From IMG/VR virus record IMGVR_UViG_3300022916_000054, positions 1 to 32,511 of that record: a stretch of 32,511 bases of DNA; one strand, written 5' to 3'. The translations under genes and the position numbers were made by a program. This document shows, piece after piece, positions 9,380 through 29,367 of this stretch. How positions within the stretch are numbered: the stretch's first letter is position 1; each line of letters begins with the position of its first letter. The stretch is from a virus. The notes below the pieces were generated by a model. The model ran no database searches, was not told where the DNA came from, and worked only from the letters and a program-made list of their open reading frames with translations.

Positions 9380-9524
9380 TCTATTTGACCTAGAGAGAAT
9401 ACAGCCAAATAGGCATGTCTATTTTATCTGCCCAAAATGCATGAAAACCTACCTAAACATGCAGAGCAAGCCAGAGATTGATCCCTATGAAAAGGGAAAA
9501 GTTGCGTTACTACGAACCTTTTAG
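9339..9524 (+). CDS. Small zinc-ribbon protein
   Basis: This is a 61-residue product with two Cys pairs, NCSKCTKRF and FICPKCMKTY, 24 residues apart, forming a likely zinc ribbon. It overlaps the end of the nuclease gene by 41 bases in another frame and has GGAGG about nine bases before its ATG. Its stop TAG falls in the loop of a hairpin (9514-9534). Zinc ribbons of this size in viruses often act as transcription or nucleic-acid-binding accessory proteins; the specific role is unknown. Confidence 0.65.
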   Translation: MPQRNCSKCTKRFNLFDLERIQPNRHVYFICPKCMKTYLNMQSKPEIDPYEKGKVALLRTF

Positions 9525-9541
9525 GAAAAGGTTCACGAAAA
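9514..9541 (+). repeat. Hairpin of the TTTT-AAAA family at a stop codon
   Basis: A perfect 9-bp stem GAACCTTTT / AAAAGGTTC (9514-9522, 9526-9534) has loop AGG. The stop codon of the zinc-ribbon gene lies in the loop. The 3' flank ACGAAAA follows. An almost identical copy lies at 10601-10630. It probably marks the 3' end of the tail transcript, yet the flank is A-rich rather than T-rich, unlike a classic intrinsic terminator. Confidence 0.7.
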
Positions 9542-9968: not shown

Positions 9969-10601
9969 ATGGTAAAACAAAAATCAAATTGGTTAAAGGG
10001 CTCAGCACTTGGTGTTGGAGCATTACTTGTTGGTGGCCTTGTTGGCGGACTAGCATTTACCCCTGAACCAGTTACACAAATTGAATACAAAAATGTATCT
10101 GTAGTAAATGAAACTGCAGTTAATGAATTAGAGTTAGAAAAAGCATTAGTTGAAGGCAACTTAACATTAGAGTTAGAAGCTAACGCTGCTTTAGTTGAAC
10201 AACTTGAAGCATTAAATGCTGAACCTGAGTTCAGAGAGCTAGAGTTTAAAGCTGCTTTGAGAGAGTCCGCTTTGGAAGACCTAGAGTCTAAAGAAGTACT
10301 TAAAGAAGTTGCTGATGTACTTGAAGCTGAGTATGGAATCGTAGCTAAATGGGATGATATCTCTTTGGATGTTGAAATGGATGATTCAGAAGAAATTGAT
10401 GAATCCTTTGAATATGACCTTGGTGGTGTTGACTTCGTTGACCCAGAGTTCGATGCTAGCGAAGAAGATGCAGAAGTAGTTGTTCTTGCGGAAGCTAAAG
10501 GTAGAGATGTAGACGACGACAGGTTCAAAGATTTGATGGTTAAGATAACCTTCTCAAAAGAAGAAACTGACTTCGACTTCGTTCAAGCTGAAAAAGCATA
10601 G
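9969..10601 (+). CDS. Membrane-anchored acidic coiled-coil protein
   Basis: This is a 210-residue protein. Residues about 8-31 form one hydrophobic, Gly-rich anchor (LKGSALGVGALLVGGLVGGLAF) after a basic N-terminus, so the rest likely faces outside. Residues about 50-120 have Leu/Glu-rich heptads (LELEKALVEGNLTLELEAN). The remainder is very acidic with Asp/Glu clusters (DDSEEIDESFEYD). The gene stands alone on the plus strand with its own promoter and ribosome site, convergent to the long minus operon, with hairpins of the same family before and after it. No family was recognised. A surface or envelope-modifying role such as superinfection exclusion is possible but unproven. Confidence 0.7.
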   Translation: MVKQKSNWLKGSALGVGALLVGGLVGGLAFTPEPVTQIEYKNVSVVNETAVNELELEKALVEGNLTLELEANAALVEQLEALNAEPEFRELEFKAALRESALEDLESKEVLKEVADVLEAEYGIVAKWDDISLDVEMDDSEEIDESFEYDLGGVDFVDPEFDASEEDAEVVVLAEAKGRDVDDDRFKDLMVKITFSKEETDFDFVQAEKA

Positions 10602-10630
10602 AACCTTTTTAGGAAAAACGTTCACGAAAA
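10601..10630 (+). repeat. Hairpin of the TTTT-AAAA family at the end of the cassette
   Basis: GAACCTTTTT (10601-10610), loop AGG, AAAAACGTTC (10614-10623), with a single C-C mismatch, then ACGAAAA. The stop codon TAG shares its last base with the stem. It is nearly identical to the copy at 9514, and it lies where the convergent minus-strand operon ends, so it may serve both directions. Confidence 0.65.
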
Positions 10631-14461: not shown

Positions 14462-14485
14462 GATCCTAAGTTAAGTTTTTTTGGT

Positions 14486-14506
14486 AAACCTTTTGTCAAA
14501 AGGTTT
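14486..14506 (-). repeat. TTTT-AAAA family hairpin in a leader
   Basis: A 9-bp perfect stem AAACCTTTT / AAAAGGTTT with loop GAC (minus strand) is followed on that strand by ACCAAAAAA. It lies in the 135-base gap before the metalloprotease gene and matches the orientation of transcription. Confidence 0.6.
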
Positions 14507-14596
14507 GGAGCAGACATACGGGTTTTGATATCCGCAAAGGCTTATCCCCGCATCCTCTCCGTATATTTCTGGTGTTAAACTAACTTAAATATGGTC
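14507..14596 (-). promoter_or_regulatory. Intergenic leader with possible promoter and folded RNA
   Basis: The gap 14462-14596 contains no gene on either strand that fits its context. On the minus strand ATATTTAAGTTA (14581-14592) resembles the TATA boxes elsewhere in the window. Downstream, ATACGG (14559-14564) and CCGTAT (14516-14521) can pair around a G-rich segment, followed by the hairpin at 14486-14506. A short regulatory RNA or 5' leader for the protease gene is plausible. Confidence 0.35.
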
Positions 14597-14719
14597 TTAT
14601 TTATTTTTCTTCTTTTTTTCAAATGCCCCCATGGCTCTTTCTCTGGTTGCACTCATGCAATCGTTGCATTCAGCAATCTCTCCCTGGGTTTGTTTGCCAC
14701 ATTTTTTGCATTCTATCAT
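14597..14719 (-). CDS. Tiny zinc-ribbon protein
   Basis: This 40-residue product starts in an ATGA overlap with the end of the EF-hand-like gene. It contains MIECKKCGKQ and ECNDCMSA, two Cys pairs 11 residues apart, followed by a basic helix ending KKKKNK. This is the classic minimal zinc ribbon. It may bind nucleic acid or a partner protein. Coding is supported by the coupled start and the Cys spacing. Confidence 0.62.
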   Translation of the reverse strand: MIECKKCGKQTQGEIAECNDCMSATRERAMGAFEKKKKNK

Positions 14720-15651: not shown

Positions 15652-15671
15652 TTATTTCTCCCTATTTTTAT

Positions 15672-15691
15672 AGACTTTTTAGAAAAAGTCT
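15672..15691 (-). repeat. TTTT-AAAA family hairpin abutting a stop codon
   Basis: AGACTTTTT / AAAAAGTCT pair across a two-base centre. On the minus strand the stop TAA of the holin-like gene runs into the stem. Its 3' flank is ATAAAAAT, then a ribosome site for the next gene. The element therefore sits inside the operon transcript. Confidence 0.55.
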
Positions 15692-18864: not shown

Positions 18865-18907
18865 ATTGTAACACCTCACATGTTTCATATAACTACTGTG
18901 ATCTTAC

Positions 18908-18920
18908 TTGTTTATATAGT
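18908..18920 (-). promoter_or_regulatory. Promoter of the long minus-strand operon
   Basis: On the minus strand AACTATATAAACA has an archaeal TATA box with an A-rich BRE-like stretch before it. Transcription would start near 18890, about 25 bases before the ATG at 18864, leaving room for the GAGG ribosome site. This is the only good promoter seen for the 29-gene operon apart from a weaker one near 14590. Confidence 0.6.
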
Positions 18921-18924
18921 TTTC

Positions 18925-18938
18925 TATACTACGGTATA
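18925..18938. promoter_or_regulatory. Inverted repeat between divergent promoters (operator candidate)
   Basis: TATAC-TACG-GTATA is an inverted repeat with a four-base centre, located between the two divergent TATA boxes. It is well placed to control both directions, with the small RHH-like product of the plus-strand gene at 18994 as the natural candidate regulator. Confidence 0.4.
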
Positions 18939-18960
18939 TATATGTATATTGGAATAGGGA

Positions 18961-18974
18961 AAAGTATATAAAGG
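18961..18974 (+). promoter_or_regulatory. Promoter of the replication module
   Basis: AAAGTATATAAAGG combines a purine BRE-like start and TATATAAA. The ATG at 18994 lies about 25 bases from the box centre, so the mRNA should be leaderless, and no ribosome site precedes that ATG. This supports both the start choice and the archaeal reading. Confidence 0.62.
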
Positions 18975-18993
18975 AGTGTGACAAAGATAGAGT

Positions 18994-19402: not shown

Positions 19403-21640
19403 TTGATACAGATACCAAATAAACTAAAAAAAGGTGGGATTGACTTCGTTCTTATTGAGAAGAGCGGAAAGAAGCCATTCCAACAAGGATGGCAGAACAG
19501 AACTATTCCTTATTATTCTGATGAATTATTAGATCACATTGAAAAGGGAGGAAACTATGGGGTGCGTGGTGGCGGAGAGAAGCACCTAGTTATAGTTGAC
19601 TTCGATAATGAAGAGCTGCAGAACGCAGTTCTTGGTAAGTTCCCAGAAACCTTCACAGTTAAGACTGGTGGAGGACTATTACATTTATACTTCTGGAGCG
19701 ATCAGAGTGATAGCTTCAAAATATTCACAGAGGACAGAGATACTCTGGCTGATGTGCAAGGCACTGGAAAGCAGGTAGTTGGACCTAGTTCAATACACCC
19801 TAATGGTAATAGTTACTCCATTGTGTTCAATAATGATATTGCACAGATTAGTTACGCAGAGCTTAGAGCTATTCTAATGCCTTATGATAGGGCTCCAAAG
19901 AAGGCTAGGCAAGAGCCCAAGGAAGTAAAGAAAGAGGGTGGAGATGACCTATTACTTCAGGAGATGAAGTCTAAGATTAGTATAAAGGCAGTTCTAGGAA
20001 AGATAGGCATTGATACAGAGCAGAACCCTACAATGTGTCCGTTCCACTCAAGTAAGGGCGGTAAGTGTTTGGGATTTAATGGAGAGGTGGCTCACTGCTT
20101 CCACTGCGATGAGAGCTGGAATATATTTAGTTTAGTTATGGATTATAAGAAAGTTGGATTTAGAGGTGCTCTTGAGTGGCTGGCTGCTGAATTCGGAATG
20201 CAGAGGGAATTGGATGAGAGTACTGAAAGATACTTCCAGAAGCAGGTGAGCGATAAGGATAATGAGTTGGCCAATGTCAAGATGGAATACTTTGGTGCTT
20301 TGTTAGCGGATCCCAAGAGTAAGGATTGGGCAGCAGCCTCAGAGGTTCTGGTGAAGCACATCGAAGATAAGAACCAAATCTACACAATCAAATATGATGC
20401 TAAGAATGAGATGTGGATCTATCAGGAAGGGATCTATGTTCCAAATGGTCGGAGTGAGATAAGCGCCATTGTAAGGGATATCCTTGGAGACCAATTTAGT
20501 AATCATATCCTTGGCTTGGTTACCTTGAAGATAGAAGCAGATACATATATCAATGCTGATGATTTCTTTAACTTCAATGCTGGAGGGGAAGTCCCAGTGA
20601 TCAATGGCCTACTTAATGTTAGGACTAGGGAATTGTCAGAGTTTGATTCTAAGAAAATCTTCTTTAGTAAGTTCCCAGTTACATATGATCCTGCAGCTGG
20701 GTGCGGTAAGATCACTGAGTTCCTTGGAGATACTCTGGCTAAGTCTGAGGATGTTAAGTTATTCTATGAAATGGTGGGATATGCCCTACTTAATGAGTAT
20801 AAATTTGAGAAGGCATTCATCTTTGTTGGAGATGGGCGTAACGGTAAGAGTAAGAGCATTGAGCTGATTAAGAAGCTTATTGGTGCTCCCAGCTGCTGTT
20901 CACTGCCTTTAACTTCCCTTGTACCTGAGAGTTTCTCCATCTCTGAATTGTTTGGAAAGAGGCTTAACTTGGCTGGAGACATTGGGAGCAAGGATTTGAA
21001 AGACACTAGTATGTTCAAGGCCCTTACTGGCCGTGACCTTATTAGTGCCAAGAGGAAGTTCCTTAATGAGTTACACTTTGAGAATACTGCTAAGTTCATC
21101 TTTGCCTGTAATGAGCTACCTAGAGTATATGATACTTCTAAGGGATTCTGGGACAGATGGGTGCTTTTGGAGTTCCCATACACCTTTGTTAGTGTGGAAG
21201 AGCATTCCAGCGCGGAGGATAATTCAACTATGAAGATTAGAGATGAGGATATAATTAAGAAGATTTCAGACCCAATGGAACTTAGTGGGTTCTTGAACGC
21301 GGCCCTTGATGGGTTGGATAGGTTGCTTGAACAAAGGACCTTTTCATCAACTTTAGGTGCTGAAGAAATTAAGAACAGGTGGGTTAGAAAGGCTAACTCA
21401 ATCATGGCTTTTTGTTTTGATAGAGTGGTTGAATCTGCCCAAGATTATATGCTTAAGAAAGACTTTCGGAGGCAATATAGTATATATTGTAAAGAACATA
21501 AAGTAAAGGTTGCTTCCGATAAGGCAATTAATGAAGCACTGACTGAACTGTTTGGAGCCTACTCCGAAAGGCGATCCCCAATGCCTGGAATGGACCAAGA
21601 ACATATGTGGTCCGGGATAAAATGGAAGAATGCTTTGTAA
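19403..21640 (+). CDS. Replication protein: Prim-Pol primase, CHC2-like zinc finger and SF3 helicase
   Basis: This is a 745-residue multidomain protein starting at TTG with GAGGTGAG six bases upstream. Residues 1-165 form a Prim-Pol (AEP) domain: VDFD (Asp66, Asp68), TGGGLLHLYF (88-97), GPSSIHPNGNSY (127-138). Residues 205-240 form a CHC2-type zinc finger (CPFH at 211-214, CFHC at 231-234), more usual with DnaG primases. From about 430 lies the D5-type SF3 helicase: Walker A GDGRNGKS (475-482), Walker B region LNLAGDIG, sensor FIFACNELPR. It would unwind the origin and prime replication. G+C seems slightly higher than in nearby small genes. It is the only clear replicase-type gene in the window, so elongation probably uses a host polymerase or one encoded elsewhere. 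Confidence 0.88.
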   Translation: MIQIPNKLKKGGIDFVLIEKSGKKPFQQGWQNRTIPYYSDELLDHIEKGGNYGVRGGGEKHLVIVDFDNEELQNAVLGKFPETFTVKTGGGLLHLYFWSDQSDSFKIFTEDRDTLADVQGTGKQVVGPSSIHPNGNSYSIVFNNDIAQISYAELRAILMPYDRAPKKARQEPKEVKKEGGDDLLLQEMKSKISIKAVLGKIGIDTEQNPTMCPFHSSKGGKCLGFNGEVAHCFHCDESWNIFSLVMDYKKVGFRGALEWLAAEFGMQRELDESTERYFQKQVSDKDNELANVKMEYFGALLADPKSKDWAAASEVLVKHIEDKNQIYTIKYDAKNEMWIYQEGIYVPNGRSEISAIVRDILGDQFSNHILGLVTLKIEADTYINADDFFNFNAGGEVPVINGLLNVRTRELSEFDSKKIFFSKFPVTYDPAAGCGKITEFLGDTLAKSEDVKLFYEMVGYALLNEYKFEKAFIFVGDGRNGKSKSIELIKKLIGAPSCCSLPLTSLVPESFSISELFGKRLNLAGDIGSKDLKDTSMFKALTGRDLISAKRKFLNELHFENTAKFIFACNELPRVYDTSKGFWDRWVLLEFPYTFVSVEEHSSAEDNSTMKIRDEDIIKKISDPMELSGFLNAALDGLDRLLEQRTFSSTLGAEEIKNRWVRKANSIMAFCFDRVVESAQDYMLKKDFRRQYSIYCKEHKVKVASDKAINEALTELFGAYSERRSPMPGMDQEHMWSGIKWKNAL

Positions 21641-21810
21641 TAGAAGTGTAAAAAGCTGGATAAGGTGGTTAATAGTAAAAGTTAACAATAGATTATCCAG
21701 CTTAGCCATGATATTTGACCCTAAGAGTGAAGGAAGGTACCTTTCCTATAGAGTGCAAAAAAGCTGGATATCCTGGATAATGTGGATTTGGACTAAAATA
21801 GATAGTAGGA
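21641..21810. other. Repeat-rich intergenic region, possible replication origin
   Basis: The 213-base gap after the replication gene has no fitting gene. AAGCTGGATAA (21653-21663) and TTATCCAGCTT (21693-21703) are an exact 11-base inverted repeat with a 29-base loop. A third copy, AAGCTGGATA, is at 21761-21770, followed at once by TCCTGGATAA (21771-21780). AAGGTACCTT (21734-21743) is a palindrome. Iteron-like repeats beside a helicase-primase gene are typical of origins. A transcription control region is the alternative. Confidence 0.45.
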
Positions 21811-21845
21811 AATATATAACATAACAGTCATAAATTGACAGGAGA
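21811..21845 (+). promoter_or_regulatory. Promoter and shared leader block
   Basis: AATATATAAC (21811-21820) is a TATA candidate. It is followed by a 22-base block (21824-21845) beginning ACAGTCATAAATTGACAG and ending with the ribosome site GGAGA. The same block with one change is at 23117-23138 before another gene. Confidence 0.45.
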
Positions 21846-21853
21846 TAAATAAA

Positions 21854-22147
21854 ATGGAATTAGAATTATCAAAAGAAAAAATTAAAAGAGAAATAACATT
21901 ACCAAAGATAGAAAAAACAGTTCAAGAGCTTAGAGTTTATGCAAGAGAAATCCTAATGAAAATGGTTGACTTAGAGTTGGGATTTACTGGATCTCCAAAT
22001 ATACCAATGGAAGTCAAATCAGGGGGATCTATTGACAGATTAGAAGATCTATCAATTAATCTTGTGGGGATAAGAGAAGACCTAACATGGATTAAAGTCA
22101 TTATTAACCAACTAAATGAGGCACTGAATAATAAAGAACAGGACTAG
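21854..22147 (+). CDS. Hypothetical helical protein
   Basis: This is a 97-residue product, helical and charged (LSKEKIKREITLPKIEKTVQ, LVGIREDLTWIKVIINQL), probably a coiled-coil dimer. The ATG has AGGAGA eight bases upstream in the shared leader block. Its stop TAG is the first part of an 18-base sequence repeated at the stop of the gene at 22545-22718. No family was recognised. Confidence 0.6.
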   Translation: MELELSKEKIKREITLPKIEKTVQELRVYAREILMKMVDLELGFTGSPNIPMEVKSGGSIDRLEDLSINLVGIREDLTWIKVIINQLNEALNNKEQD

Positions 22148-22344
22148 GTTTTTGCAGCCTTTCACCAGGCTAACGCCTGTGTGTCCAAGTGCAAAGCACT
22201 TGAGACATCTGAAAAAAACATAACAGTTACTTAGGTAACATCTCGGGGGGAGGTTTATAACTTTTCATCACCTCACCTATAAGTCCCCCTCCCCCCAACC
22301 TTTTAAGAAAAGGTTGACAAAAAGAAGCTTTTAAAAAAAGCTTC
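22145..22344 (+). ncRNA. Structured intergenic RNA region, copy 1
   Basis: The region holds six potential hairpins in a row: CAGGC/GCCTG (22166-22179), CAAGTGC/GCACTTG (22186-22202), GTTAC/GTAAC (22226-22239), a 9-bp GGGGGGAGG/CCTCCCCCC stem (22245-22253, 22288-22296), AACCTTTT/AAAAGGTT (22297-22315) and GAAGCTTTT/AAAAGCTTC (22324-22344). It opens with TAGGTTTTTGCAGCCTTT at a stop codon, as does copy 2 at 22716. No known RNA family was recognised. A 3' UTR element, processed RNA or regulatory leader are all possible. Confidence 0.5.
22250..22262 (+). promoter_or_regulatory. TATA candidate inside a GC-rich stem loop
   Basis: GAGGTTTATAAC places a TATA-like TTTATAA right after a purine-rich BRE-like stretch. 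Transcription would start near 22285, close to the C-rich arm of the stem, and lead into the gene at 22374. Confidence 0.35.
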
Positions 22345-22373
22345 AGCAAAAGAAAAATATGGAGAAAAATAAA

Positions 22374-22535
22374 ATGAACATTAAAGAAAAGATAGCATTT
22401 CTTACTGAGTTAAGACTAGCATCAGGAGACATTATAATGCTAAGGGATGATGAGACAATGGATTCAATTATGGAAATATATTTATTAACTGCAAAATCTG
22501 TAGCCAAGGAATTAAACAAAAAGAAAAAAGGGTAA
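22374..22535 (+). CDS. Small helical protein
   Basis: This is a 53-residue product (MNIKEKIAFLTELRL...), helical with a basic end (AKELNKKKKG). GGAG nine bases upstream favours this ATG over an in-frame ATG 15 bases earlier, which overlaps that ribosome site. No family was recognised. Similar in style to early regulators of viruses. Confidence 0.55.
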   Translation: MNIKEKIAFLTELRLASGDIIMLRDDETMDSIMEIYLLTAKSVAKELNKKKKG

Positions 22536-22544
22536 ATAAACAAG

Positions 22545-22718
22545 ATGAGTATGTATATAGATTATGAATGTAAGTATTGTGGTAATAAAGGAAAGATTAG
22601 TACTTGGAAAGAACCTTGTTTCAAAGGGATCTTTCTGGAATGTAATTGTGATAATTGCAAGTATTATGAAAGACTAAGAACGGTATGCTTAGATTGCCAA
22701 GAAAAGCAAATGAAATAG
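22545..22718 (+). CDS. Small multi-zinc protein
   Basis: This is a 57-residue product with eight Cys: ECKYCGNKG, PCFKG, ECNCDNCKYY, VCLDCQEK. The pairs can hold two zinc ions in ribbon-like folds. The start ATG follows nine bases after the previous stop. The stop TAG begins the 18-base repeat shared with the gene at 21854. A transcription or RNA-binding role is likely for such proteins, but unproven. Confidence 0.6.
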   Translation: MSMYIDYECKYCGNKGKISTWKEPCFKGIFLECNCDNCKYYERLRTVCLDCQEKQMK

Positions 22719-22842
22719 GTTTTTGCAGCCTTTTATGAAAAAGTCTTCATGCTCATTGGGCTTCGGCTCATTTGAGACCCCCAGAGGTTTTGATCACCTC
22801 TTTCCTCTGGGGCTGAACTTTTTCCTAAAAAGTTCACAAAAA
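22716..22842 (+). ncRNA. Structured intergenic RNA region, copy 2
   Basis: It opens with TAGGTTTTTGCAGCCTTT at the stop codon, like copy 1. Next is a CTCA/TGAG stem (22752-22776) enclosing GGGC-TTCG-GCTC, a very stable UUCG tetraloop, then AGAC, a 9-bp CCCCAGAGG/CCTCTGGGG stem (22779-22787, 22804-22812), and a perfect GAACTTTTT/AAAAAGTTC hairpin (22815-22835) followed by ACAAAAA. The order of elements parallels copy 1 in shorter form, suggesting a duplicated functional RNA. Confidence 0.5.
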
Positions 22843-23103: not shown

Positions 23104-23116
23104 GTTAAATGAGATC

Positions 23117-23138
23117 ACAGTCATCAATTGACAGGAGA
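23117..23138 (+). repeat. Second copy of the shared leader block
   Basis: ACAGTCATCAATTGACAG followed by GAGA repeats the block at 21824-21845 with one base changed (A to C). Both copies lie just before a start codon and include its ribosome site, so they may give the two mRNAs a common translational control. Confidence 0.6.
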
Positions 23139-28773: not shown

Positions 28774-29367
28774 ATGGCCCCAAAAAAAGGTTTTGTTCCA
28801 CATAATAAAAAAGAAATAGACATTAACCTAATGAAAGAATTATATTTTTTGAAAGGATATGATTACCAGGAGATAGCAGACTATTTTGGATTTAAATCAA
28901 AGTCAGCAATATATGATCGTTTTAAGGCACTTGGATTAAAAGCTAGAACAAACTCAGATTTAAAAACAGGCACAAAACATAGTAAGATAACAAAGGAAAA
29001 GATAAGTCGTGCTGGTATTGGAAGAAAACATACTGATGAGGCTAAAAAAAAGATGTCTGAGAGGTTTGCTGGTGACCAAAATCCCATGCATGGTAAATTT
29101 GGAAGTAAAAATCCAAACTGGAAGGGCGGATATATTTCTAAGGCAGGATATAGGGTTGTTTGTGTTAAAGGAAAACAAGTATTGGAGCATAGGGATATCT
29201 GGGAAACACATAACAAGAAAAATATTCCAAGAGGATATCAGATCCATCACATAAATAGAAAACGAGAAGATAATAGGATAGAAAACCTTAGACTTATGAA
29301 AGAGGAAGACCACATAAAACTTCATTATGAGAAAAGAGGAAGAAATTCTTTTGGAAGATTTAAATAG
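28774..29367 (+). CDS. HNH homing-type endonuclease
   Basis: This is a 197-residue protein. Residues 15-55 form a helix-turn-helix (YDYQEIADYFGFKSKSAIYD). Residues 68-105 contain NUMOD3-like units (HSKITKEKISRAGIGRKH, AKKKMSERFAGDQNPMHGK). The C-terminal HNH nuclease has EHRDIW, GYQIHHINRKREDNRIENL and EEDHIKLH. This combination is typical of free-standing homing endonucleases. It sits between portal and protease, which are normally adjacent, so it is likely an inserted selfish gene. No ribosome site or shared promoter is visible before it. Confidence 0.88.
   Translation: MAPKKGFVPHNKKEIDINLMKELYFLKGYDYQEIADYFGFKSKSAIYDRFKALGLKARTNSDLKTGTKHSKITKEKISRAGIGRKHTDEAKKKMSERFAGDQNPMHGKFGSKNPNWKGGYISKAGYRVVCVKGKQVLEHRDIWETHNKKNIPRGYQIHHINRKREDNRIENLRLMKEEDHIKLHYEKRGRNSFGRFK

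Follow-up and report, generated by a model that had tools for sequence, protein, structure and literature searches.

The genome of a tailed virus contains two paralogous structured RNA elements, referred to as C1 and C2, whose stems have been altered while the base pairing has been kept. Each of them consists of a virus-specific 5' module (a 5' block, the hairpins H1 and H2, and a GC-rich hairpin H3 with a fixed loop) joined to a terminal hairpin, H4, which, together with its C(A/G)AAAA-type tail, belongs to a hairpin family common in the phylum of the probable host. The reading that we favour, tentatively, is that C1 and C2 act in cis, as modules of the mRNA lying between cistrons, and serve to define its 3' end, to process it or to stabilise it.

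Structure and organization of C1 and C2

The window, i.e., the whole stretch of DNA under investigation, is a 32.5-kb virus record (IMGVR_UViG_3300022916_000054, 32,511 nt), and both elements are located in its rightward operon, just downstream of the primase-helicase gene (19403-21640). An earlier note, made from the letters of this DNA, had described two related elements opening with TAGGTTTTTGCAGCCTTT at 22145 and 22716, with the TAG acting as the stop codon of an ORF; this is confirmed, the two ORFs spanning 21854-22147 (C1) and 22545-22718 (C2). The following parts can be recognized:

22145..22324, + strand: C1, the structured RNA module in full, running from the stop codon of a 97-aa ORF to ACAAAAAG (z -6.7)
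22145..22162, + strand: conserved 5' block TAGGTTTTTGCAGCCTTT of C1, TAG being the stop codon
22166..22179, + strand: hairpin H1 of C1, CAGGC/GCCTG; 4/4 aligned pairs differ on both sides from C2
22181..22208, + strand: hairpin H2 of C1; TTGAGAC (22200-22206) ends its 3' strand
22245..22296, + strand: GC-rich hairpin H3 of C1, loop with TTTTCATCACCTC; ATCACCTC at 22267-22274 predicted unpaired
22296..22323, + strand: terminal hairpin H4 of C1, CAACCTTTT-AAG-AAAAGGTTG with an ACAAAAA tail
22324..22351, + strand: second H4-family hairpin, adjoining C1, GAAGCTTTT-AAA-AAAAGCTTC followed by AGCAAAA
22716..22843, + strand: C2, the structured RNA module in full, running from the stop codon of a 57-aa ORF to ACAAAAAG (z -3.7)
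22716..22733, + strand: conserved 5' block TAGGTTTTTGCAGCCTTT of C2, TAG being the stop codon
22735..22750, + strand: hairpin H1 of C2, ATGAA/TTCAT, compared pair by pair with that of C1
22752..22776, + strand: hairpin H2 of C2, with a cUUCGg loop; TTGAGAC at 22772-22778
22779..22812, + strand: GC-rich hairpin H3 of C2, loop with TTTTGATCACCTC; ATCACCTC at 22793-22800 predicted mostly unpaired
22814..22842, + strand: terminal hairpin H4 of C2, GAACTTTTT-CCT-AAAAAGTTC followed by ACAAAAA

The 18-nt 5' block is exactly the same in the two elements, and beyond it their alignment still beats 500 of 500 shuffled pairs; both end shortly 5' of the start or ribosome-binding region of the next ORF. The sequence GGTTTTTGCAGCC occurs in two exact copies in the window, one in C1 and one in C2, and the + strand of the window has TTGAGAC at just two positions, 22200 and 22772, which lie 55 and 56 nt from the TAG. 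The cUUCGg loop of C2 is real, and the TTGAGAC, the GC-rich hairpin and the TTTT-AAAA hairpin with ACAAAAA are shared as had been claimed; this last hairpin, however, is not private to the two elements, since five more are present in the window. A further feature, overlooked in the earlier note, is the H3 loop TTTT[C/G]ATCACCTC, conserved in both copies. A covariance model (R1) built partly from C1 and C2 themselves matched C1 with 78.9 bits (E 4e-16) and C2 with 152 bits, both being in part its own source, and it also matched H4 elsewhere in the window.

The search of the window against Rfam 15 at the gathering threshold matched no family, in agreement with the earlier statement that no known RNA family could be recognized; relaxing the threshold yielded a single hit, to U7 (E 2.5), in another part of the region and without meaning. 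The covariance search proposed in the earlier note did not detect, in viruses, any homologue of the complete element. Among the matches listed (at least 120) for exact scans of IMG/VR with the 5' block, the rest of the element was present only in this virus and in near-identical records, and a complete scan with the 5' block plus TTGAGAC gave the same outcome for the whole element. A distant DNA search of phages for the element returned none, and homologues of the 5' module were not found outside near-identical copies of this virus. These records share 99.94-99.97% identity with the virus of the window, and two of them (L124 and L125) have zero variants within C1 and C2, so that they contribute no covariation.

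Folding and compensatory changes

The predicted folds are stable (-70.2 kcal/mol, z -6.7, for C1; -41.7 kcal/mol, z -3.7, for C2), and in both cases 0/200 shuffles equal them; relative to shuffles, the opposite strand folds less well (z -4.4 and -3.1, respectively). C1 was trimmed by hand before the alignment, by removing an extra arm and one nucleotide before H1 and by partly shortening the loop and stem of H3, and its comparison with C2 comprised 128 alignment columns and 22 pairs. Letters are available in both copies for 19 of these pairs, and all 19 can pair, none being broken; the three remaining ones, in H3, fall in alignment gaps and were left out of the compensatory count. Eight pairs are compensatory on both sides, H1 contributing four of them and H3 and H4 two each, versus one or two in slid controls, where the partners were moved by 1-3 columns. 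Since the folds beat shuffles and the compensatory pairs exceed the controls, the selection on RNA structure advanced in the earlier note is supported, structure conservation being here that of two sequences from one virus; the covariation between them is good, yet it is not independent evidence, because hand trimming favours the alignment.

In either copy, an alternative GAGGT/ACCTC pairing within H3 is less favourable by about 6 kcal/mol. A closing helix TTTTTG/CAAAAA has a pairing probability of 0.69-0.99 in isolated C1, which is low in C2 and in a longer context, and is not claimed here.

The virus and its probable host

The virus probably infects a Nanoarchaeota-type (DPANN) archaeon, on the basis of divergent BRE/TATA promoters of archaeal architecture (18911-18985), of a terminase 56% identical to that on a Nanoarchaeota contig, of portal relatives in 3/371 genomes of the Nanoarchaeota phylum, and of the phylum-specific hairpins described below. 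The host is probable rather than proven because terminase relatives are also found among Bacteroidota phages; many of them occur in Bacteroidota and in viral contigs, all without the RNA element.

Other features of this genome can be mentioned. The promoter region carries GAAAA[G/C]TATATAAA and separates the leftward from the rightward operon, and the rightward promoter implies that the first gene is leaderless or almost so. The 200-nt gap 3' of the primase gene harbors CTGGATA repeats in both orientations (21640-21790) and an 11-bp hairpin, with a best sliding-window z of -5.8; it is possible that it represents an origin or a regulatory region. The leader ACAGTCAT[A/C]AATTGACAGGAGA is repeated at 21813-21845 and 23106-23138, each time before an ORF, with a 4-bp hairpin GTCA/TGAC immediately 5' of the Shine-Dalgarno sequence, and is possibly a translational operator. 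The search for protein relatives of the small early ORFs gave none. An HNH_3/NUMOD3 homing-type endonuclease gene (28774-29367) is flanked by the portal and the protease/capsid genes, and a distant relative (L127) has a similar gene 3' of its portal.

The H4 hairpin family

The palindrome AACCTTTT-NNN-AAAAGGTT, with up to three mismatches, occurs 7 times in the window versus 0.46 expected. Besides the three hairpins in and adjoining C1 and C2, the following have been found:

9514..9541, + strand: H4-family hairpin; the stop codon TAG of the upstream ORF lies within its loop region
10601..10630, + strand: H4-family hairpin with one bulge, directly 3' of a stop codon
14478..14506, - strand: H4-family hairpin in the sense of the leftward operon, preceded by a structured stretch
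15662..15691, - strand: weaker H4-like hairpin AGACTTTTTCTAAAAAGTCT followed by ATAAAAA, at a stop codon of the leftward operon

Including stem variants, the H4-type hairpins are seven, and all of them are intercistronic and sense to transcription (the chance of 7/7 in sense being 0.008); three of the seven touch or include a stop codon, and in six cases the next start follows at a distance of 21-73 nt. The region 14478-14602 on the - strand is a third structured intercistronic stretch ending in H4 (z -2.6), without the 5' block of C1 and C2. A hairpin-family model (R2), built from 29 copies, 24 of which from hosts, matched the window at 22296, 14506 (- strand), 9514 and 22815, with E from 2e-8 to 4e-6, viral copies being among its 29 seeds. 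Within C1 and C2, it is H4 only that exhibits the 9-bp stem NAANCTTTT/AAAAGNTTN, the 3-nt loop and the NNC(A/G)AAAA tail of the family.

What the covariance search did show is that H4 is a member of a large family, with covariation, present in Nanoarchaeota genomes. The phylum to which a Nanoarchaeota MAG belongs was sampled with 371 genomes (metagenome assemblies); the palindrome was retrieved in its exact form from 23 of them, with about 44 sites versus 3 for the reversed control, and the C(A/G)AAAA-type tail follows nearly all of these sites. The R2 motif is present in 119/371 genomes (E <= 0.01; about 4 expected by chance), its seeds deriving partly from the same set but from only about 23 of the 119, versus 7/192 in Patescibacteria and 3/148 in Bacteroidota. 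The richest genome (G023) carries 31 copies of one variant pattern and another (G060) carries 15, with zero control matches; in the former, GCTT stems tend to be followed by the tail AGCAAAA, and GTTT stems by ATCAAAA or AACAAAA. The outermost base pair, lying outside the search pattern, is paired in 27 of 29 copies and appears in all four Watson-Crick forms. These sequence data point to a widespread, covarying and phylum-specific hairpin of Nanoarchaeota, which is absent from Rfam, for which a literature search found no description, and which had previously gone unnoticed.

As for their position, 31% of the host copies are just 3' of sense stop codons, versus 9% of random positions, and 9% are inside sense ORFs, versus 47%, these proportions being rough and referring to loci (L408-L465, L474-L493) picked by score; some copies open with the stop codon itself. 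Other copies are embedded in intron-bearing tRNA genes, one being a tRNA-Gly(CCC) recognized by both ARAGORN and Rfam (L424/L458) and others being recognized by Rfam (L417, L463), and still others lie within about 100 nt of tRNA genes; one is upstream of 16S (L408) and one, by eye, is in 23S (L432). Hairpins beside tRNAs and next to partial copies of tRNAs were also observed (L423, L425, L434 and, in tandem, L435).

The H3 loop and the 16S rRNA 3' tail

Both H3 loops hold UUUU[C/G]AUCACCUC, which matches the 3' tail of 16S rRNA (anti-Shine-Dalgarno region) and is predicted to be unpaired in C1 and mostly unpaired in C2. The resemblance resides in AUCACCUC (C1) or GAUCACCUC (C2) displayed in an apical loop; the viral copy differs in being enclosed in a hairpin loop, whereas the rRNA tail is free after helix 45, and in the absence of the final C of CCUCC. 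Three readings can be given for this loop: an antisense to GAGGUGA-type Shine-Dalgarno sequences, a decoy for a protein, or a coincidence.

On the first two readings, C1 and C2 would be trans-acting RNAs, in which H3 would expose its loop as a partner either for Shine-Dalgarno sequences of the GAGGUGA type or for proteins recognizing the 3' end of 16S rRNA. The octamer ATCACCTC is confined, on the + strand of the window, to the two elements and to matching positions of their folds, where it is predicted unpaired even though the stems beneath differ, and the 16S tail CTGGATCACCTCCT is present in 2/15 host-phylum genomes checked; the match to it was, nevertheless, spotted post hoc, and the GAGG of the stem, being complementary to the CCTC of the loop, could alone constrain part of the latter. 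Duplex scans revealed no specific antisense target: self-complements aside, the best pairing of the loops is with ribosome-binding regions (for example at 18869 and 14124), and they also pair well with the GAGGTGA of the primase, as any anti-Shine-Dalgarno-like string would with a Shine-Dalgarno sequence, so that this support is weak. A precedent for a protein reader exists in the bacterial GTPase Era, which reads GAUCA plus CCUCC and is absent from archaea (PMC10582724); therefore, in archaea some other protein would have to do the reading, and it would face loops that both lack the last C of CCUCC. Read in this way, a trans-acting role explains the loop and leaves H4 and the stop-codon position unexplained, and we regard it as rather unlikely.

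Origin and possible role of the elements

A cis-acting mRNA-end module is favoured because what the sites share is an RNA end or a place of maturation. We infer that C1 and C2 act as RNA, in cis, and with a role in processing or stability: the module might define or protect an mRNA 3' end or, alternatively, might be a processing site that separates and differentially stabilises small early/middle cistrons, while the virus-specific part would contribute a loop that binds a protein or an RNA. Such a role is consistent with predicted folds that are stable and stronger on the sense strand, with seven viral hairpins that are all sense and intercistronic, and with a host family found at stop codons, in tRNA genes and near rRNA, i.e., at RNA maturation sites. 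Against it, the fixed sequence of the H3 loop is left unexplained by processing, and some host copies of H4 lie in longer repeats, in tandem and in either orientation, as would befit a mobile DNA repeat.

According to the latter idea, C1 and C2 would be two copies of a non-autonomous mobile palindrome (REP/MITE-like) with conserved ends and a host-type 3' palindrome, their structure being a by-product of a single-strand transposase. IS200/IS605-type elements and REPs likewise rely on hairpins, both ends are common to C1 and C2, and host genomes carry up to 31 H4-type hairpins. The likeness to REP/BIME sequences extends to a short palindrome that is repeated many times in a genome, is largely extragenic, frequently sits at the 3' ends of genes and is oriented by a conserved flank (PMC3733652, PMC2817692); H4 differs from them in its tag, a 3' (N)C(A/G)AAAA instead of the 5' GTAG of REPs, in its occurrence in an archaeal phylum and in a virus, also inside tRNA genes, and in terminating, in C1 and C2, a larger structured module. 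Membership in the REP/RAYT system was rejected: no GTAG-type tag was seen at the 5' foot, and the Y1 transposase (PF01797) does not track hairpin number, with one match in the richest genome and none in that with about 15 hairpins. A mobile palindrome accounts well for the host H4 but not for the compensated stems of C1 and C2, unexpected for decaying insertions, nor for seven viral copies that are all sense and intercistronic, and it seems an unlikely explanation of the elements. All the observations would also fit a mixed origin, with viral RNA modules having co-opted a host repeat.

The position of C1 and C2 just downstream of the primase-helicase gene, past the intergenic region with CTGGATA repeats, could also evoke DNA-level hairpins in replication initiation or packaging; this is improbable, given a sense-strand fold stronger than the antisense one, the presence of G-U pairs and of the cUUCGg loop, and H4 copies spread over both operons and always in sense. 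Even less credit can be given to programmed stop-codon readthrough driven by a structure immediately 3' of UAG, of the kind known from PYLIS and from viral readthrough signals. UAG does open each element, and VFAAF is the beginning of the frame downstream in both; these frames, though, part at once (after 5 codons) and end at 28 and 18 codons, while the shared block is identical at every position, beyond what a protein would require. Without a conserved coding frame after UAG, such an identity was rejected, as was a frameshift reading. As in bacterial-type intrinsic terminators, a GC-rich hairpin is located in operon gaps 3' of stop codons; a U-tract is, however, absent, the sequence directly 3' of the hairpin reading ACAAAAAG or AGCAAAAG, and this identity was discarded too. 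Some H4-family copies lie inside intron-bearing tRNA genes, which recalls the bulge-helix-bulge introns of archaeal tRNA and rRNA (PMC4090602), whereas C1 and C2 are between protein genes and their removal would join no reading frame; a mobile group I or II intron was likewise rejected, with no Rfam match and with flanking ORFs that are complete and have their own starts and stops.

Knowledge of RNA signals in DPANN archaea and their viruses is extremely scant. Should the hairpin family turn out to mark processing sites or the 3' ends of RNAs, it would provide a regulatory signal for the whole phylum, readable from sequence, and it would tie unassigned viruses to Nanoarchaeota hosts. A bolder scenario, which we consider doubtful, is that Nanoarchaeota and at least one tailed virus share an undescribed hairpin-(N)C(A/G)AAAA signal for RNA maturation, at stop codons, tRNA genes and rRNA flanks, from which the virus would have built larger modules displaying a copy of the 16S 3' tail, thereby manipulating how a DPANN cell translates or turns over its RNA. 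C1 and C2, in which the 16S-tail-like loop stays fixed and the stems change freely, offer a concrete, testable case of possible viral RNA mimicry.
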